DNA of 64,000 bases from the NCBI GenBank assembly GCA_003134685.1, contig PLCA01000006.1:1-64000 (forward strand). Direction: 5' to 3'. The position numbers were made by a program, and so were the translations under genes. Below are positions 8,385 to 64,000 of the stretch, one piece after another. The notes under the pieces were generated by a model. The model did not search any database and was not told the DNA's origin. It saw nothing but the letters and a program-made list of their open reading frames with translations. Source of the DNA: Gemmatimonadota bacterium (GTDB taxonomy: Bacteria > Gemmatimonadota > Gemmatimonadetes > Gemmatimonadales > Gemmatimonadaceae). Position 1 is the first letter of the stretch. Each line of letters opens with the position of its first letter.

Positions 8385-9322
8385 TGCTTCGCGGCGCATT
8401 TCTCTACCTCGCGGGCCAGCAGCAAATATTCAAATTCGTTCGCAACAACAGGCTGGCAAAGAGCTTCGCCGGCCGGTTCGTGGCGGGTGAGACCCTCGAT
8501 GCCGCTCTCGCCGCGGTCGCCAGGCTCAATGCGCGTGGCATCACGGCCTCGCTCGATCTGCTGGGCGAGAGCGTCCATAACGAAGCGGAGGCGCGGAGAG
8601 CGGGCGAAGCATACATAGCCATGCTCGATCACATCCACGAACGGAAAGCAGACGCCAACGTTTCGGTCAAGCTCACCGCAATGGGACTCGACATCTCCGA
8701 GGACCTCTGCGTTGTGATCGTGCACACGATCCTGCAGCGCGCGCGTGATTACGGCTCGTTCGTGCGCATCGACATGGAGTCGAGCGAATACACCCAACGC
8801 ACGCTCGATCTGTTCGAGCAGCGACTCTATCCGGCGTATCCCCAGAATGTCGGGATCGTGCTGCAGAGCTATCTGTTCCGCACATTCGCCGACGTCGAGC
8901 GCGCCATTCTGCTCAAGGCGCGCGTCCGCCTCTGCAAGGGAGCGTACAAGGAGCCTGAAACAGTCGCCTATCCCGACAAGAAGGACGTCGACGCGAGTTA
9001 CATTCGCTGTATGCGCGAGCTGATGCTGAATGGGAACTACCCCGGTATCGCCACGCACGACGAAGCGATCATCAGAGAGGCGAAGCGGTTTGCCAAGGCC
9101 AACGACATCGCGCCCGATCGCTACGAGTTCCAGATGCTCTACGGAGTGCGTCGTGACCTTCAGGACCAGCTAGTGCGCGAAGGCTACCGCCTGCGGGTGT
9201 ACGTGCCTTTCGGAACGCAATGGTATCCGTATCTCATGAGGCGTCTCGCCGAGCGGCCCGCCAACGTCGCGTTCCTCACCGGAAGCGTGTTCAAGGAGAT
9301 GGTCGGCAAACGCCGCCGCTGA
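8384..9322 (+). CDS. putA: Proline dehydrogenase (monofunctional)
   Basis: A 312-residue FAD-dependent TIM-barrel enzyme that oxidises L-proline to 1-pyrroline-5-carboxylate. Its length fits the monofunctional PutB/FadM-type enzyme, not the large bifunctional PutA; the P5C dehydrogenase must be elsewhere. Visible signatures are SVKLTAMGLD, VRIDMESSEY, VGIVLQSYLFRT, VRLCKGAYKEPE and the C-terminal substrate-binding YVPFGTQWYPYLMRRLAERP. TGATG at 8382-8386 overlaps its start with the M14 peptidase stop. Proline released by the upstream peptidase could feed it. Confidence 0.92.
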   Translation: MLRGAFLYLAGQQQIFKFVRNNRLAKSFAGRFVAGETLDAALAAVARLNARGITASLDLLGESVHNEAEARRAGEAYIAMLDHIHERKADANVSVKLTAMGLDISEDLCVVIVHTILQRARDYGSFVRIDMESSEYTQRTLDLFEQRLYPAYPQNVGIVLQSYLFRTFADVERAILLKARVRLCKGAYKEPETVAYPDKKDVDASYIRCMRELMLNGNYPGIATHDEAIIREAKRFAKANDIAPDRYEFQMLYGVRRDLQDQLVREGYRLRVYVPFGTQWYPYLMRRLAERPANVAFLTGSVFKEMVGKRRR

Positions 9323-9324
9323 CC

Positions 9325-9711
9325 ATGGGCAGATTCCTTCCCCCCGATCCATCGAAAGGCGATCCGAATACGATCGGCGGATACATGGCCGTCCATGACC
9401 GTCCGGCAGCATTCGAGGGAAGCGACGGTGCTTCGTACAGCGTGGAGATCGTGACCGACACGAGCGGAGAAAAGGAACGGCCATTCGCCGCATATCTCCT
9501 GTTCGTGCGGTGGGGCCACGGCGATCCCGTCGCCAGCGGACACCTGGAGACGGAATTTCTCGCTTTCGCGACAACCGAGGACGACGCGCGCAAAATGGTA
9601 GGCGCAATGTTGCTCAATGAAGTGAAGCTAGGCCTGGATCAACTGATCACGGAGAACCGCGCGAAGCTGCTGCCCTGGTGGGATTCGATGCGCCAGGAGG
9701 GTACCAGTTGA
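9325..9711 (+). CDS. Small hypothetical protein, 128 aa
   Basis: ATG 9325 lies two bases after the proline dehydrogenase stop, and the gene ends in a TTGA overlap with rsgA. A longer frame from 9220 runs inside the upstream gene and is unlikely. The protein is soluble and mixed alpha/beta in appearance, with VEIVTDTSGEKERPF, RWGHGDPVASGHLETEF and a C-terminal amphipathic helix ending near LLPWWDS. I recognise no domain. Being locked between two essential-looking genes by overlaps argues that it is real; its function is unknown. Confidence 0.75.
   Translation: MGRFLPPDPSKGDPNTIGGYMAVHDRPAAFEGSDGASYSVEIVTDTSGEKERPFAAYLLFVRWGHGDPVASGHLETEFLAFATTEDDARKMVGAMLLNEVKLGLDQLITENRAKLLPWWDSMRQEGTS
9695..9701 (+). 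promoter_or_regulatory. Shine-Dalgarno AGGAGGG deciding a TTG start for rsgA
   Basis: AGGAGGG ends 6 bases before TTG 9708 and lies inside the end of the preceding gene. No comparable site precedes the in-frame GTG at 9678, so TTG 9708 is the likely initiator. Confidence 0.65.
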
Positions 9712-10673
9712 CGCGCAAAGAGGGCGTCGTGCTCCAGGGGACAGGCGGGATATGGCATGTCCGCGCCGACTCGGGGGAGACGCACGAAGCCTCGCTTCGC
9801 GGAAGGCTCAAGCAGGAGCGTAAGCAGGACAGAAAACTCGCCGTCGGTGATCGTGTGATTCTCGAGATAGACGAGCGAGGTGAGCACTGGGCGATCGCGG
9901 AGATTCTCCCCCGCCATTCGAAGCTCGCTCGGCGCGAACCAGGGGAAGGGCAGGGTGAGCGCATTGTTGCCGCCAACGTCGATCAGGTCGTCGTCGTCTT
10001 CTCGGCGGCGAAGCCTGAGCCGCACCGCAGAATGCTCGACCGGTTTCTGGTGATCGCGGAGGGGAATTCACTTCAGTCGCGGATCGTCATCAACAAGATC
10101 GAGCTGGTGAACAGGGAAGAGGCCGAGCGCGCGTTCTCCGACTATGCGGCGGCCGGCTATCCCGTGCACTTCACCAGCGTCAAGCAGCGGGTCGGATTGG
10201 ACGAGCTCCACGCCGCGCTGGCTGGGAAGACGTCGGTGCTCACCGGCCCCTCGGGAGTCGGCAAGTCCTCACTGATGAACGCAATGTACCCGGGGCTTGA
10301 TCTTCGCGTCGGCGAGATCAGCGAGTCGGTGGGCAAGGGCAGGCACACGACTGTCGGCGCGTTGCTGCATCCGTTGCCAGACGCTGGCTACGTTGTGGAT
10401 ACCGCCGGTCTGCGCGAAGTCGGAATGTGGGGCCTCGCGTCCGAGCATCTCGACGAATGCTTTCGCGAGTTTCGTCCGCATATCGCGGAGTGCAAGTTCG
10501 GGGACTGCACTCACCGGGTCGAGCCCGGTTGCGGGGTGCGGACCGCGGTGGCCGCGGGCTCGATCAGCGCCGAGCGCTACGACAGCTACCTTCGGTTGCG
10601 CGAGGAGATTGAGGAGACAGAAAAAAAGTGGGCGCCGTACTCCGCTGCATCCAAGGCGAAAAAGCGGCGCTAA
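9708..10673 (+). CDS. rsgA: Ribosome small-subunit-dependent GTPase A
   Basis: From TTG 9708 the protein has 321 residues. RsgA is a late 30S-assembly GTPase that checks the decoding site. It shows the diagnostic circular permutation: an N-terminal OB fold (about 5-80), then G4 NKIE (129-132) before G1 GPSGVGKSS (180-188), G2 Thr215 in KGRHTT and G3 DTAG (231-234). The C-terminal zinc knuckle is C262, C267, H269 and C275 in CKFGDCTHRVEPGC. Last gene of the overlapping chain from fadI; element A follows directly after its stop. Confidence 0.95.
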   Translation: MTRKEGVVLQGTGGIWHVRADSGETHEASLRGRLKQERKQDRKLAVGDRVILEIDERGEHWAIAEILPRHSKLARREPGEGQGERIVAANVDQVVVVFSAAKPEPHRRMLDRFLVIAEGNSLQSRIVINKIELVNREEAERAFSDYAAAGYPVHFTSVKQRVGLDELHAALAGKTSVLTGPSGVGKSSLMNAMYPGLDLRVGEISESVGKGRHTTVGALLHPLPDAGYVVDTAGLREVGMWGLASEHLDECFREFRPHIAECKFGDCTHRVEPGCGVRTAVAAGSISAERYDSYLRLREEIEETEKKWAPYSAASKAKKRR

Positions 10674-10677
10674 ATGA

Positions 10678-10916
10678 CTGCAAAAGAACGGGGTGGGAGG
10701 CGTCAGAGGCACAGATGCCAGTTTTCAGGTCACTACGCCCGGATTTTTCTACCGCTGATCAAGGCACAAGCAACTGCCTGTACACCGAAGGCCACAGAGG
10801 CAAGTCCGGGCGTCGTGACCTGATACCTGGCAACTACGCTACTGACGCCTCCCACCCCGTTCTTTGCAGTTTGCAGTTTGAGGCTACTGACGCCTCCCAC
10901 CCCGTTCTTTGCAGTT
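10678..10916. repeat. Inverted-repeat element A with duplicated tail
   Basis: Two long imperfect inverted arms, 10678-10742 and 10805-10870, enclose a 62-base middle (10743-10804). The outer 30 or so bases pair almost perfectly (GGGGTGGGAGGCGTCAG against CTGACGCCTCCCACCCC). The middle contains ACAAGCAACTGC and CCACAGAGGCAAGTCCGGGCGT, both found again in element B. A 34-base segment of the right arm (10838-10871) is repeated exactly at 10883-10916. The element fills the gap between the converging rsgA and osmC-like genes. It codes for nothing evident and resembles no IS I know. Confidence 0.85.
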
Positions 10917-10929
10917 CTCAGTTGTACTT

Positions 10930-52951: not shown

Positions 52952-53047
52952 AAATCCTCCTGGTTGAACAGAGGCGGATTGCATCAATAGTGATTCCGGC
53001 ATAGCAACAATATGGCGAACTTCCGAATGTGATCTGACCAGCCGCAC

Positions 53048-53083
53048 AAAAAGGCCGCCTCGATGCAGCGAGGCGGCCTTTTT
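53048..53083 (-). terminator. Strong intrinsic terminator of the kamA operon
   Basis: A perfect 15-bp stem (53048-53062 with 53069-53083), loop ATGCAG, ends in five T on the minus strand, 12 bases after the kamA stop. It separates that operon from the DUF1259 gene. Confidence 0.92.
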
Positions 53084-53094
53084 GTCGGGTGGGC

Positions 53095-54264
53095 CTATTC
53101 GCCCGCCGCGCGCCGGCGCTTGGTTCGCCTCGGCGCCGCGGATTTCTTCCTGCTGATCGGAACGACACCGACTTCGGCTGCCGGCTCGAGTTCGGCCGGA
53201 GCAGCAGGCACGGTGTGCGGCTGCTTGTAGACCTGCCGCTTGCCCTCGTAATTCTTGAAAATCACTTCGTCGTCAGTGATTGACTCCAGATACTCGGGCA
53301 GGAGTGGCACCTTGCCGCCGCCGCCCGGGGAGTCGATGACAAATTGCGGAACAGCGAGACCCGATGTCCACCCGCGTAGGGCCTGCATGATCTCGAGCCC
53401 CTTCTGCACGGTCGTGCGGAAGTGCTCGCCGCCCGCCACCTGGTCCGCCATATATAGATAGTAGGGCCGCACGCGCGCCTTGAGCAGCTCGTGCATCAGC
53501 TTCATCATCACCTTGGGGTCGTCGTTCACCCCTTTGAGGAGCACCGTCTGGCAGCCAAGCGATACGCCGGCTCTCGACAGGCGGTCCAGCGCGGCGACGG
53601 CGGCCGGTGTCAGCTCGCTCGGGTGATTGAAGTGCGTGTTCATGAAGACCGGGTGGTACTTCTGCACCATCTCGCAGAATTCCGGCGTGATCCGCTCCGG
53701 CAGGTGCGAGGTGATGCGGCTCCCGATGCGGATGATCTCGATGTGCGGAATCGCGCGCAGCTGCTGGAAAAGGTACTCCAGCCTCCGATCGCTCAACATC
53801 ATCGGGTCGCCGCCACTCATGATGACGTCGCGGATCTCCGTATGCTCGCGGAGATACTTGAACGCGGAATCGTACTGGTTGAGCGGAATCTTCTCGGGAT
53901 CGCCGACCTTGCGGCGCCGCGTGCAGAAGCGGCAGTAGGTCGCGCAAATCGGGCTCACGAGAAACAGCGCACGGTCCGGGTAGCGGTGCGTGATGTTCGG
54001 CACTGGCGAGTCGCCGTCCTCATCGAGCGAATCAATCACGCCGTCCACCACGTCGAGCTCTTCGACCGTCGGTACGTATTGATTCCACATCGGATCGCCC
54101 ACTTCCTTGATCTGCTCGAGAGCAGCCGGAGTGATTCGCATCTGGAAGTTGTCGAAAGCCGGCTTCAGCGCCTCGACGTCGATGACGTCGTGCCCGAACT
54201 TCTCCGCCAGCTTCTCGAGACTTGCAATGCTCTGATCCTTGATGATCTGTTGCCAATCGCTCAT
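53095..54264 (-). CDS. kamA: KamA-family radical SAM aminomutase (lysine 2,3-aminomutase-like)
   Basis: A 389-residue enzyme. The radical SAM cluster motif CX3CX2C is Cys107, Cys111 and Cys114 (CATYCRFC); SGGDPMMLSD follows for SAM binding; Lys318 in SPGGGGKVPLLP is the PLP lysine. The family moves the 2-amino group of L-lysine (or Glu/Arg in relatives) to C3; EpmB relatives supply (R)-beta-lysine for EF-P. It has an added C-terminal tail of about 45 residues, Ala/Pro-rich then very basic (RRTKRRRAAGE). Its ATG overlaps the stop of a 41-codon ORF; two ATP-grasp ligases precede. No efp or ablB is near. Confidence 0.88.
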   Translation of the reverse strand: MSDWQQIIKDQSIASLEKLAEKFGHDVIDVEALKPAFDNFQMRITPAALEQIKEVGDPMWNQYVPTVEELDVVDGVIDSLDEDGDSPVPNITHRYPDRALFLVSPICATYCRFCTRRRKVGDPEKIPLNQYDSAFKYLREHTEIRDVIMSGGDPMMLSDRRLEYLFQQLRAIPHIEIIRIGSRITSHLPERITPEFCEMVQKYHPVFMNTHFNHPSELTPAAVAALDRLSRAGVSLGCQTVLLKGVNDDPKVMMKLMHELLKARVRPYYLYMADQVAGGEHFRTTVQKGLEIMQALRGWTSGLAVPQFVIDSPGGGGKVPLLPEYLESITDDEVIFKNYEGKRQVYKQPHTVPAAPAELEPAAEVGVVPISRKKSAAPRRTKRRRAAGE

Positions 54265-54386
54265 GCGTGCACCACTCCGGCCCCGTTAGGGGCGTTGTAG
54301 ATGATCCGAACATCCTCGGATCGGGGCGATATTCCGGCGCCGAACGACTCGATGCCAGATTCCTGCAACCCTTCAAGCAACATCAC
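54261..54386 (-). CDS. Candidate 41-codon ORF coupled to kamA
   Basis: GTG 54386 lies 2 bases after the upstream ligase stop (an ATG is next at 54383), and the stop overlaps the kamA start by ATGA. The product begins MMLLEGLQES and ends YNAPNGAGVVHA; it is neutral to acidic, has no Lys and no Cys, and is Gly/Ala-rich at the end. Its tight fit between two genes suggests it is translated, either as a small protein or to couple kamA to the ligase. Whether the peptide has a function is unknown. Confidence 0.5.
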   Translation of the reverse strand: MMLLEGLQESGIESFGAGISPRSEDVRIIYNAPNGAGVVHA

Positions 54387-54388
54387 GC

Positions 54389-55402
54389 TCAACCTAGTCC
54401 GGACAGCCTGAGTGTCTTCGCCCAGCGCTCTGTGTAGTTCTCTCCACGCTTCGCCAGCGCGTGATCGCAGATGCGCCGGATCAGGTCGGAATAGCCGATG
54501 GTCGCGACGCCAGCCATGCGCGCTAATCCCGCGGTCGGCGAAATGTCCGGGTTGGCGTTCACCTCGAGCAGCCACGGGCGACCCGACTGGTCGATGCGGA
54601 AATCGCAGCGGCCGTATCCCTCTCCACCTACCACATTCCATGCCGTGCGGGCGATGGCGATGAGCTCATTGGAAAGATCTTCGGAAAGGTCGGCGGGACA
54701 ATTCGGCTTGGCGCCGAGATCTTCATCGCTCCCAGTCTCCCACTTGGACCGATAGGAGACGATGTGCCACATCCCGCGCGGCATCTGAGCGAAATCGATC
54801 TCCGCGATCGGCATGACTTCGTCGCCGACGATGCCGACGTTCACCTCGCGGCCCGGAATGAAGCGCTGAACCAGCACCTCGTCCCAGCCTTCGAACATCG
54901 CTTCGATCCTTGCCGAGAGACCGCGCATGGTCCTTACGACCGAGCGCTGCTCGATTCCGACGGAGGCATCCTCGGCGACCGGCTTACAAATCGCCGGGAA
55001 TCCGACGCTCGTGATTTCATCGCCGCGGCGGACATGTGCCCAGCGGGGCATCGGCAGTCCGGCGCGGTCGAGCACTCCGTTGACGACGTTCTTTCTGAGC
55101 GTGAGCGCGGTCGTCCAGCTGGAGCTTCCGGTGAAAGGGATTCCAAGGAGCTCGAGCACCGAGATGACCATCGGCTCGTATATGGCCTCTCCGTCAATCC
55201 CTTCGACGAGATTGAAGATCAGATCGAACTTTCCCTTGCGGACGCGCTCGACCCAGCGGCCGTCGTTGCTCACGGGCACGCGCACGACCTCCGTCGCCCA
55301 ATCCAGCAGCGCGGTCTCCACAGCTTCGATGGAATCGAGCAGCTGAACCTCGGGAGCTTTCCCGAGGGCCGAGAGGCCGTCGAACAACAAGGCAATCTTC
55401 AT
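54389..55402 (-). CDS. ATP-grasp ligase, D-Ala-D-Ala ligase-like (second of pair)
   Basis: From ATG 55402 (AAGGA upstream) the protein has 337 residues; the frame to 55534 runs into the neighbour. The fold order is that of Ddl: N-terminal MKIALLFDGLSALG, IFNLVEGIDGE, GIPFTGSSSWTTALTLRKN, the ATP-grasp centre KPVAEDASVGIEQRS, RFIPGREVNVGIVG, and the Mg-binding CDFRIDQSGRPWLLEVNANPDISP. It should join a carboxylate to an amine through an acyl phosphate. It differs from canonical Ddl in the omega loop and is unlikely to be the housekeeping enzyme. Confidence 0.85.
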   Translation of the reverse strand: MKIALLFDGLSALGKAPEVQLLDSIEAVETALLDWATEVVRVPVSNDGRWVERVRKGKFDLIFNLVEGIDGEAIYEPMVISVLELLGIPFTGSSSWTTALTLRKNVVNGVLDRAGLPMPRWAHVRRGDEITSVGFPAICKPVAEDASVGIEQRSVVRTMRGLSARIEAMFEGWDEVLVQRFIPGREVNVGIVGDEVMPIAEIDFAQMPRGMWHIVSYRSKWETGSDEDLGAKPNCPADLSEDLSNELIAIARTAWNVVGGEGYGRCDFRIDQSGRPWLLEVNANPDISPTAGLARMAGVATIGYSDLIRRICDHALAKRGENYTERWAKTLRLSGLG

Positions 55403-55425
55403 CGTGTTCCTTTGTCTGGTATCGG

Positions 55426-56739
55426 TTACGCCGATGCGCTGGCGGCGAGCGCGGGAGCGCCCTGAACTCCGCTGGTCCGCGAGAGGGAGTGATCGAGATC
55501 CACCCCCTGCCGCGCCGCAGCGTACTTCAGACAATTCTGAATGAGCTCTTCATAACCGATCCCTGCCGCTCGCGCGGCCTTCGGCAAACACGAATTGTCC
55601 GCTGGATCGGGAAGAATTCCGGGCAGCGGATTCACTTCGAGAACGTTCGGAACTCCGGAAGCATCGAGACGAACATCGATTCTCGCCCAGTCTCTGCAGC
55701 CGAGCACACGGAAGGCGTCGAGCGTTACTCGCTCAATAGACGCCTGAAGCTCCCGCGTGATACGCGCCGGACACTGGAAAATATCGAGCGGACTCTCGGG
55801 ACGATCCCAGACGAATTTTGCATCGAAGCTGTAAATCGGGAGAGCGCCCTTGGGCAGCGTCTCGAAATTCATTCCGACGATGGGCAGCACCGTCGCGTCG
55901 GTGCCGTTGCCGAGAACCGCGCACGTGAATTCCTTCCCCGGCAGATACTCCTCGATGAGAACGGGCTGCTTGTAGCTCTCGAGGAGGAACTCGGTCTGCC
56001 TGAAGAGGTGGTTGAGGTCAAAGCAGAGATTGCTGTCGGTGATTCCCTTCGACGACCCTTCATGGAGCGGCTTGACGAAGAGCGGAAGGCTTAGTTCGCC
56101 AGCGGCGGCTTTGAAATCTTCGAGCTTCTCGACGACCGCGAACCGCGGAGTCGGGATGCCGTAGAAGGTCAGCGTCTCCTTCGTTCTCGCCTTGTCGAGG
56201 CAGAGCGAGAGAGTGAAGGGATCGCTTCCGGAGTAGGGAATTCCGAAAAACTCACAGATCGCCGGAACGTGGGCTTCGCGGTTTACCCCGTGAATTCCCT
56301 CGGCGATGTTGAAGACGATGTCGGGTCTGACCTGGCGGAGTCTCTCCGGGAAATCGTCTTTCGCCTCGAGGCGGACGACTTTTCCAAGGCGAGCGAGAGC
56401 GGATTCCACGGCGGCAATCGTGGCGGGGCTGTCCCACTCGGCGAACTCGTCGCGGCTGACTAGCTCCGGAATGGAGCGATGAACGCTTTTACTAGGAGGC
56501 TCTTCATCGAGAATGGAGCGATGAACGCTTTTACTAGGAGGCTCTTCATCGGGAATGGAGCGATGAACGCTTTTACTAGGAGGCTCTTCATCGAGAATGG
56601 AGCGATGAACGCTTTTACTAGGAGGCTCTTCATCGGGGCGGAGAAGCTCCCCGTCTTCCTGACGGCCGCCCTCTGATGCTGGGCTGGTGAGCTCTGTTGG
56701 CTCGGGCTTTTGATTGTAGGCGAGTCCGATAAGAGTCAT
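55426..56739 (-). CDS. ATP-grasp ligase, D-Ala-D-Ala ligase-like, with repeated N-terminal linker (first of pair)
   Basis: ATG 56739 with AGGGTG upstream gives 437 residues. After a unique N-terminus (MTLIGLAYNQKPEP) the protein has four copies of a 14-residue unit, DEEPPSKSVHRSI plus L or P in turn, and then the ligase: IVFNIAEGIHGVNREAH, GIPYSGSDPFTLSLCLDK, KPLHEGSSKGI, EYLPGKEFTCAVLGNG and VLEVNPLPGILPDP. The last block is closer to true Ddl than that of its partner. The repeat linker is probably disordered. It heads the kamA operon, with its own promoter behind the thyX terminator. Confidence 0.85.
   Translation of the reverse strand: MTLIGLAYNQKPEPTELTSPASEGGRQEDGELLRPDEEPPSKSVHRSILDEEPPSKSVHRSIPDEEPPSKSVHRSILDEEPPSKSVHRSIPELVSRDEFAEWDSPATIAAVESALARLGKVVRLEAKDDFPERLRQVRPDIVFNIAEGIHGVNREAHVPAICEFFGIPYSGSDPFTLSLCLDKARTKETLTFYGIPTPRFAVVEKLEDFKAAAGELSLPLFVKPLHEGSSKGITDSNLCFDLNHLFRQTEFLLESYKQPVLIEEYLPGKEFTCAVLGNGTDATVLPIVGMNFETLPKGALPIYSFDAKFVWDRPESPLDIFQCPARITRELQASIERVTLDAFRVLGCRDWARIDVRLDASGVPNVLEVNPLPGILPDPADNSCLPKAARAAGIGYEELIQNCLKYAAARQGVDLDHSLSRTSGVQGAPALAASASA
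56469..56636 (-). repeat. Four tandem 42-bp coding repeats
   Basis: Units 56469-56510, 56511-56552, 56553-56594 and 56595-56636 differ only at the last base or two, in an alternating pattern (Leu, Pro, Leu, Pro), which suggests duplication of an 84-bp pair. They encode DEEPPSKSVHRSI(L/P) in the first ligase. The near identity at the DNA level points to recent expansion. Confidence 0.95.
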
Positions 56740-56781
56740 CGACACCCTACGAAAATTCAAACGATCGAATCATTGATCACG

Positions 56782-56810
56782 AGTATATAAACGCGGACCA
56801 CCAGGCGCAA
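56782..56810 (-). promoter_or_regulatory. Putative sigma-70 type promoter of the kamA operon
   Basis: On the minus strand TTGCGC (56805-56810) is followed after exactly 17 bases by TATACT (56782-56787). It is placed between the thyX terminator and the ATG of the first ligase, about 40 bases before it. Confidence 0.65.
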
Positions 56811-56829: not shown

Positions 56830-56886
56830 AAAAGAAAAAAAGTCCGAGAAAAACTTTTTTTGGAGGTCGGAGATTTTCTCTCAGAC
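56830..56886 (-). terminator. Intrinsic terminator of thyX
   Basis: On the minus strand GTCTGAGAGAAAA, which overlaps the thyX stop, pairs with TTTTTCTCGGAC and is followed by TTTTTTTCTTTT. The stem has one G-U pair and one bulge. Confidence 0.75.
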
Positions 56887-57609
56887 TTTGTGGTAGACGA
56901 TCCGGGCAGCCTCTCTCCTATCCTCCGCCTGGTAGATCTCGAAGTCCGAGAAAAAAGCGGGAGTTTCCCTATGGAGAAGCTTGAGCATGACGATGGCGCA
57001 GCGGCGAATTTCGAGCTCGGCTCCCTCGCTCGATCGAAGCTCCAGCATCGTTCTCCAGGCTCTCGCGTTGGCGGTGACCACGATTTTCGTCTCGGTGGAG
57101 TTGGGAAGAACTCCTCTCGCGGCCTCTCTCGACATCTTCCGGCGATGGACCTTATCGGGAACCCAGCCATAACGCTCCATCAGGTGCTCGACGAGTCGGA
57201 CGTAGCTTTTTTGCGCCTGGTCGATCTGGGTCCGCCACTCAGTTTCGAGCGCCTCGTCTCCGACGATCGCCGGCGGGACGACGAAGTTGGCTTCCGACTC
57301 GTCGACGTACCGCTGACTTAGCTGGCTATAGGCGAAGCCGGCGCGATGGCGGACCAGCTCGTGGGTGAGCGAGCGACTCACGCCCTCCAGCAGGAGAGAG
57401 TAGTTCGCGTGCTCGAGAACGCTTCCATGTCCCTGTTTCTTGATGTTCTCGAGGTAATCACGGGTCGCCCGGTTGGCCGGGTTCTTCTGGCTCATGTAGC
57501 AGAGACGGCCGGCAAACTCCGCGAGCCTCTCGCCATCGGTGCTCTCTCCGAGCCAGCGGACATTCAGGTGATCGGGCTCCAGAAAGACCGGGCGGGCGAG
57601 GAGAGTCAC
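56881..57609 (-). CDS. thyX: Flavin-dependent thymidylate synthase
   Basis: From GTG 57609 the protein has 242 residues; a TTG at 57630 would add seven. ThyX makes dTMP from dUMP with FAD and methylene-tetrahydrofolate. The ThyX signature is RHRAGFAYSQLSQRY (the RHR flavin/dUMP motif with downstream Ser and Arg), preceded by HGSVLEHANYSLL and followed by RMKMSREAARGVLPNSTETKIV-type text around 57100-57160. No thyA is seen in the window. The transcription unit ends in its own terminator. Confidence 0.93.
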   Translation of the reverse strand: MTLLARPVFLEPDHLNVRWLGESTDGERLAEFAGRLCYMSQKNPANRATRDYLENIKKQGHGSVLEHANYSLLLEGVSRSLTHELVRHRAGFAYSQLSQRYVDESEANFVVPPAIVGDEALETEWRTQIDQAQKSYVRLVEHLMERYGWVPDKVHRRKMSREAARGVLPNSTETKIVVTANARAWRTMLELRSSEGAELEIRRCAIVMLKLLHRETPAFFSDFEIYQAEDRREAARIVYHKV

Positions 57610-63705: not shown

Positions 63706-64000
63706 CTGCAACTGAACGGGATCCGACAACGGCGAACTGAACGGGATCCGAGATGTCAGAGGCATAGATCTCAGTACGTAGTCACTGCGCTCCGACCGTC
63801 CTGAACGCGCCTCCTATTACAACAACCGACGGCTTTACCATAACGCCACCAGATACGTCTCAGCGCAGTTACTAAAACCTGGTATCTACGCTTCTCAGAT
63901 CTCGGATCACGTTCAGTTTGCAGTTTGCAGTTCGCAGTTCTCAGATATCGGATCCCGTTCAGTTCGCAGTTTGCAGTTCTCGGATTCGGATCCCGTTCAG
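63706..64000. repeat. Inverted-repeat element C with tandem tail, cut by window end
   Basis: Arms 63735-63795 and 63863-63918 are imperfect inverted copies (AACTGAACGGGATCCGAGAT against ATCTCGGATCACGTTCAGTT). The middle shares AACGCCAC and neighbouring bases with element B, and the left arm has GTCAGAGGCATAGATCTCAG at the place of GTCAGAGGGCATAGATGCCAG in B. To the right, a segment of about 40 bases ending CGGATCCCGTTCAG is repeated about three times with TTTGCAGTTTGCAG spacers up to the window end. On the left, CTGAACGGGATCCGA occurs twice. It occupies the region upstream of the thiolase gene. Confidence 0.8.

Follow-up and report, generated by a model that had tools for sequence, protein, structure and literature searches.

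The described systems closest to the operon studied here are the D-Ala-D-Ala ligase Ddl (PDB 1iow, 4c5a and 8evv), the AblA/AblB system for the osmolyte N-epsilon-acetyl-beta-lysine, N-acetylglutaminylglutamine synthetase (a GNAT and an ATP-grasp; TIGR03103), and the EpmAB system for beta-lysylation of EF-P. The operon lies in the window, that is, the first 64,000 nucleotides of contig PLCA01000006.1 of a Gemmatimonadota bacterium (assembly GCA_003134685.1), and encodes two Ddl-like ATP-grasp ligases (LIG1 and LIG2) and KamA, a lysine 2,3-aminomutase-like radical S-adenosylmethionine (SAM) enzyme; most relatives add a GNAT acetyltransferase. LIG1 and LIG2 share the fold and the ATP and acyl-phosphate residues of Ddl, whereas they form clades of their own and their substrate-side residues are altered. 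Like the cassette, AblA/AblB combines an enzyme of the lysine 2,3-aminomutase family with a GNAT, but the cassette KamA scores below the AblA cut-off, its GNAT is from another family, two ligases are added, and in Desulfuromonadia the cassettes coexist with other KamA genes. N-acetylglutaminylglutamine synthetase follows a similar logic of ATP-grasp ligation and N-acetylation, although that system lacks KamA and has other partner genes. TIGR03103 gave one weak match among 17 cassette GNATs (1.4e-4) and is not among the 25 matches listed for each ligase out of totals of 34 and 46. EpmAB has a KamA-family enzyme in common with the cassette, and the window KamA is below the EpmB cut-off.

One member of the cassette GNAT family has a solved structure, PDB 2r7h (profile E 1.2e-48), entitled 'Putative D-alanine N-acetyltransferase of GNAT family'. 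A literature search found no paper on it, and the name looks like a guess. In Myxococcus xanthus, MXAN_4097 (PMC9108774) has paired Ddl-like domains of unknown function and, like LIG1 and LIG2, is not the main Ddl; it differs in carrying two tandem Ddl C-terminal domains in one protein and in its neighbors. Searches of open-licence full texts turned up no description of the cassette; it may have been mentioned earlier in the survey of ATP-grasp/GNAT amidoligases by Iyer and co-workers.

We propose, at roughly even chances, that the window carries three genes of an old four-enzyme cassette whose product is an N-acetylated, beta-lysine-containing amide made through two ligations. KamA enzymes make beta-amino acids such as beta-lysine, and the window KamA, judged from its family and residues, would convert L-lysine to beta-lysine. 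The GNAT, whose gene is part of the operon in most relatives but located in trans in the window genome, would acetylate an amine, and the epsilon-amine of beta-lysine is the probable target. LIG1 and LIG2 would act in succession, activating a carboxylate with ATP to an acyl phosphate that is passed to an amine. The data establish the linkage and co-occurrence of the genes, the replacement of the acetyltransferase and the divergence of the ligases from Ddl; all substrates, the sequence of reactions, the product and its function are our inference. We would expect a small, soluble, N-acetylated amide or tripeptide-like compound that contains beta-lysine. In some lineages another amine may take the place of beta-lysine, and our first guess for the function is a compatible solute. 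A dipeptide or conjugate containing a beta-amino acid, suggested in a preliminary description of this DNA made without database searches, is still the best guess. That the four enzymes act together follows from their tight linkage across distant phyla and from the way a foreign copy has stood in for a partner that was lost.

All three genes are on the minus strand. LIG1 (P0003; 55426..56739, ATG at 56739; 437 residues) and LIG2 (P0002; 54389..55402; 337 residues) each contain a Dala_Dala_lig_C domain and are separated by 23 bases, as noted before, while kamA (P0001; 53095..54264; 389 residues) encodes Radical_SAM and LAM_C domains. LIG2 orthologs are present in about 92 of 298 Gemmatimonadota genomes (E up to 2e-48, a threshold of our choice). 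Using LIG2, we gathered 49 neighborhoods (L011–L059), comprising the 29 best loci from other genomes and 20 more distant ones; gene calls in these neighborhoods are crude, and rows with wrong strands were excluded. LIG1 is located 5′ of LIG2 in all 49 (broken in one, L013), kamA follows 3′ in 45, and a GNAT gene is found between LIG2 and kamA, or after LIG2, in 40. This pattern does not hold for the window and its nearest relatives, whose operons contain no GNAT; all four genes are present in the window genome, not in one operon. In a panel of 41 hand-picked Gemmatimonadota genomes, KamA (E<1e-100) occurs in 12 of the 17 that carry the cassette and GNAT (E<1e-45) in 13 of these 17; neither occurs at comparable strength in any of the other 24, and a remote GNAT is present in G038 (4e-33). 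The preliminary description had proposed a survey of this neighborhood, and the association of the two ligases with KamA proved to be strongly conserved. Its view of the operon as self-contained and without an acetyltransferase partner is not supported: the usual unit includes a GNAT, not AblB, encoded between LIG2 and kamA, and the window genome has another member of that GNAT family at a different location.

The cassette extends well beyond Gemmatimonadota. A scan of the collection with a LIG1 profile gave 576 loci, and the figures that follow refer to the best 80, which are biased to close relatives. All four genes occur together in 62 of these: 27 of the 36 from Gemmatimonadota (counting L091 and L137, which carry no phylum label) and 35 of the 44 from other groups. 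According to the record titles, four-gene loci fall under nine phylum-level labels, which besides Gemmatimonadota are Desulfuromonadales and other Deltaproteobacteria, Ignavibacteria, Kryptonia, Bacteroidetes, Acidobacteria, Aminicenantes, Planctomycetota and Nitrospinae; since most loci are metagenome-assembled, single labels may be wrong. One carrier is a named strain, Desulfuromusa kysingii DSM 7343 (L143). Nine of the 80 loci have both ligases and GNAT with no KamA alongside; at least three of these lie near contig ends (L093, L106 and L118), and one, L099, has a remote KamA.

Desulfuromonadia, the class of L143, provided an independent test of the linkage. The GNAT family is present in 23 of 98 genomes of this class, always with E 2.3e-46 or better, and was not detected at 1e-25 in the other 75, while a KamA of some kind is found in 97 of the 98. 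In each of the 23 genomes, the best KamA is encoded directly 3′ of the GNAT, on the same strand, with a gap of 9–141 bases. These GNAT-linked KamAs score 5.4e-148 or better, compared with 5.6e-141 for the next-scoring gene. The order LIG1-LIG2-GNAT-KamA is found in all 22 loci fetched and in the 23rd, L143. Elsewhere, a genome labelled Wallbacteria (G310) has a split cassette, with LIG1 alone at one locus and LIG2-KamA at another (L117 and L215).

Eight genomes have the ligases and KamA without an in-operon GNAT: the window genome (G000), G061 and G093, which are placed in the same genus, and G291, G136, G276, G107 and G199. Seven of them encode a GNAT of this family in trans; none was found in G291, which is 87% complete. 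The trans copy of the window genome is on another contig (G000:C1:476890-477381; 163 bits, E 1e-47), and in this genome and three close relatives it adjoins a gene that by eye resembles dihydrolipoamide dehydrogenase. No trans copy at a comparable level was found in G015 and G126, which have the gene in the operon. In a GNAT tree, from which the GNAT of L179 (G038) was omitted as too distant, the seven trans GNATs group in a single clade (100/99) placed among cassette GNATs of other phyla, and the in-operon GNATs of Gemmatimonadota form a separate clade (100/98). Judging from this topology, a foreign GNAT took over from the native in-operon GNAT in the lineage of the window. Such a replacement speaks clearly for acetylation as a step of the pathway. 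Neither the 17 cassette GNATs nor the trans GNAT of the window genome matched any AblB model in the library searched, which presumably contains one.

KamA of the window is the only KamA match in its genome, and 2a5h is the sole solved relative found. Its best-scoring KamA model is the AblA equivalog TIGR03820 (426.2, below the cut-off of 525.4), and the score against the EpmB equivalog TIGR03821 is 231.2 (cut-off 369.3); by these curated cut-offs the enzyme belongs to neither the AblA nor the EpmB family, which supports the preliminary description on this point. The CxxxCxxC cluster motif is present in all 36 full-length cassette KamAs. Aspartates occupy the positions equivalent to D293 and D330 of lysine 2,3-aminomutase, which we take to bind the epsilon-amine of lysine, in 34 and 36 of the 36, that is, wherever the pattern was readable (DxPGGGGK in 36 of 36, the other aspartate in 34 of 34). 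KamA is lysine-aminomutase-like by these features, and the retained aspartates would favor lysine as the substrate. At the KamA position, L099 carries a remote KamA-family gene (8706-10094, plus strand; 462 residues) without PGGGGK, whose product may have another substrate.

LIG1 and LIG2 both keep the ATP-grasp fold and the residues of Ddl that handle ATP and acyl phosphate. For both, the closest solved structures are Ddl. The LIG2 model (predicted local distance difference test, pLDDT, 89.5) has Ddl as its best structural match, with template modeling (TM) scores of 0.76/0.84 to 4c5a, and the model of a LIG1 relative, L073, is similarly confident (pLDDT 88.1). When residues are mapped by alignment to the Ddl of the window genome, with the Ddl and aminomutase positions numbered as we presume them to be, no variation is seen at the P-loop lysine, R255, D257 or N272, and position 270 holds Glu or Asp. 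The substrate side differs: E15 is not conserved in either ligase, Y216 is replaced by Trp (Phe in the window LIG1), S150 by Ala in 17 of 18 LIG2 sequences, and S281-L282 by Ser-Cys plus a four-residue insertion in LIG1 and by Ala-Gly in LIG2. Of these five positions, LIG1 retains S150 and S281 only and LIG2 none. A ligase tree against true Ddl, also called for in the preliminary description, places LIG1 and LIG2 in clades (98/97 and 99/97, 39 ligases) apart from the Ddl of the same genome; the LIG2 clade also takes in a third ATP-grasp of that genome. Because the Gemmatimonadota rows cluster together inside each clade, the pair is old.

The Ddl of the organism is neither of these two ligases. 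Both score below the TIGR01205 (Ddl) cut-off of 245.65, LIG1 at 149.4 and LIG2 at 137.2, while a canonical Ddl with the classical motifs by eye is encoded on contig 1 (310.3 bits, above the cut-off) and is the strongest of eight PF07478 matches in the genome. A role of the window ligases as the Ddl of the cell was rejected in view of these scores, the separate clades, the altered substrate residues and the canonical enzyme. At L004 1474-3506, on contig 4 of the same genome, the gene for the third Ddl-like ATP-grasp shares 4 bases with the end of the open reading frame (ORF) that precedes it, which has 350 residues and no NCBIfam match.

An in-frame tandem repeat in LIG1 was overlooked in the preliminary description: four 42-bp copies with 98% matches (DEEPPSKSVHRSI[LP]) at 56469..56635 on the minus strand. 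It maps to a loop predicted to be disordered in the relative L073, where residues 17-34 have low pLDDT. LIG1 of G291 has one unit compared with four in the window, so the repeat probably expanded recently. In a close relative (G136, loci L013 and L078), a frame break divides LIG1 into two pieces, and LIG2 and kamA are intact.

Several neighboring genes bear on the chemistry. In 11 of 31 Desulfuromonadia loci, or about 10 of 27 if four pairs that seemingly represent the same contig are merged, the cassette is flanked by a fusion of a GNAT with an acetylpolyamine-amidohydrolase-like domain, and the closest solved relatives of one fusion protein are acetylpolyamine amidohydrolases. An M24-type peptidase is encoded directly 3′ of kamA in four Ignavibacteria/Bacteroidetes loci. 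For both of these, families were searched with one to three examples each and the remaining members were assigned by BLAST clusters. Among the 44 loci outside Gemmatimonadota, the ligases adjoin a pyruvoyl arginine decarboxylase in six (L126, L127, L141, L145, L146 and L157), four of which have an agmatinase and three a deoxyhypusine-synthase family gene; one example of each family scored above its curated cut-off. The ligase-only loci L127, L141 and L145 lie between the arginine decarboxylase and methyltransferase/glycosyltransferase-like genes. As fixed partners, two candidates were rejected: in Gemmatimonadota an acetylpolyamine deacetylase has homologs at 1e-10 in 31 of the 41 panel genomes, nearly all of them remote and none in the window genome, and the pyruvoyl arginine decarboxylase occurs in nine of the 41, the window genome not among them, with no link to the cassette. 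The deacetylase-like neighbor and the polyamine genes suggest an alkylamine tail on the product. Taken together, the neighbors are consistent with a small amide whose amine tail can be acetylated and deacetylated, for which beta-lysine would be the usual but not the only amine.

Some observations weigh against our proposal and against a fixed role of beta-lysine. The arginine decarboxylase neighbors point to polyamines as much as to beta-lysine, and the three ligase-only loci outside the phylum continue with methyltransferase- or glycosyltransferase-like genes; KamA is encoded elsewhere in the genomes of L141 and L146. KamA is absent from five of the 17 panel genomes that have both ligases, and GNAT is missing as well in three of the five; neither beta-lysine nor acetylation is therefore a constant requirement. 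The KamA substrate is not settled, since the score is below the AblA cut-off (426 versus 525), and the cassette has no known product, transporter or phenotype. A tentative alternative, which we consider clearly less probable than our proposal, is polyamine conjugation: the ligases would couple amino acids to agmatine or a polyamine, or to beta-lysine in the role of a diamine, and acetylation of the terminal amine would be set or reversed by the GNAT and the deacetylase-like neighbor. The decarboxylase, agmatinase and deoxyhypusine-synthase genes and the Desulfuromonadia fusion fit this chemistry; the usual partner in the best 80 loci is nevertheless KamA rather than polyamine genes, and the window genome has neither a pyruvoyl arginine decarboxylase nor a deacetylase relative at 1e-10.

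Unlikely, and somewhat more so than polyamine conjugation, is a narrow solute pathway in which N-acetyl-beta-lysine is made as in AblAB and the ligases lengthen it into a neutral dipeptide solute comparable to N-acetylglutaminylglutamine amide. No transporter was recognized within the cassette, which agrees with such a role, and a paper on the Pelobacter carbinolicus genome (PMC3543383) assigns ablA/ablB to salt tolerance. The GNATs, however, match no AblB model, and each of the 23 Desulfuromonadia genomes with the GNAT has one or more additional KamAs, which means that the cassette is not just their abl operon; soil, groundwater and lake samples are among the record titles, and a salt response is not known for the cassette. 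Modification of a protein, EF-P or a cell-wall precursor by beta-lysine or a beta-lysyl peptide, also raised in the preliminary description, found no support and seems improbable. EpmB is of the KamA family and Ddl-fold ligases act in cell-wall synthesis, but the EpmB score is 231 against a cut-off of 369, the Ddl substrate residues are altered, and no further neighbor recurs across phyla in our clusterings, in which the neighbors are partly annotated. That the ligases are ordinary spare D-Ala-D-Ala ligases next to an unrelated kamA is most improbable of all: their nearest solved structures and folds are those of Ddl, yet they reach only 137 and 149 where the cut-off is 246 and the genome's own enzyme 310, and their clades, their substrate residues and their linkage to GNAT and KamA across phyla all speak against it.

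For an old, previously undescribed pathway under nine phylum-level labels that makes N-acetylated amides of beta-lysine or polyamine-like amines, with the acetyl group as a reversible mark or protecting group and a lost GNAT replaced horizontally, we see the balance as about even. A beta-lysine conjugate, if that is the product, would represent a new class of metabolites and would give a function to two Ddl-like ligase subfamilies and to the solved but unexplained 2r7h. In view of the families matched, the genes are likely to be annotated as 'D-alanine ligase' and 'lysine aminomutase', though the ligases are not Ddl.

The boundaries of the minus-strand operon, LIG1, LIG2 and kamA between two terminators, are as the preliminary description gave them. 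Upstream, a terminator-like hairpin marks the end of thyX (56839..56889, minus strand; -15.7 kcal/mol, z -2.1). A strong terminator with a long hairpin and a U-run follows kamA (53042..53088, minus strand; -41.8 kcal/mol, z -6.2), and none of 200 shuffled sequences folded as stably. The promoter reported before, TTGCGC-17-TATACT, is present as an exact text match (56782..56810, minus strand) and is plausible as the operon promoter, but it agrees with the sigma-70 consensus at only 8 of 12 positions and a consensus scan of the region reported no promoter-like site. The 41-codon ORF with a GTG start (54261..54386, minus strand) likewise exists, and kamA overlaps it by 4 bases; it is probably a spacer rather than a gene, at the site where relatives carry the GNAT gene. 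Among L011-L039 a single relative, L013, shows similarity to it (80%), and in L011 and L012, whose LIG2 is ~96% identical to that of the window, the gap between LIG2 and kamA is 57 bases. The ORF has no detectable similarity to the GNAT at the same site of other genomes, and a decayed GNAT was rejected (best score 29, equalled by 213 of 300 shuffles). An anti-phage defence system was also rejected, as PADLOC models gave no matches for four proteins. Outside the operon, two places in the window (10838-10923 and 63892-64000) carry short direct repeats in which CAGTTCGCAGTTTG-like units abound.

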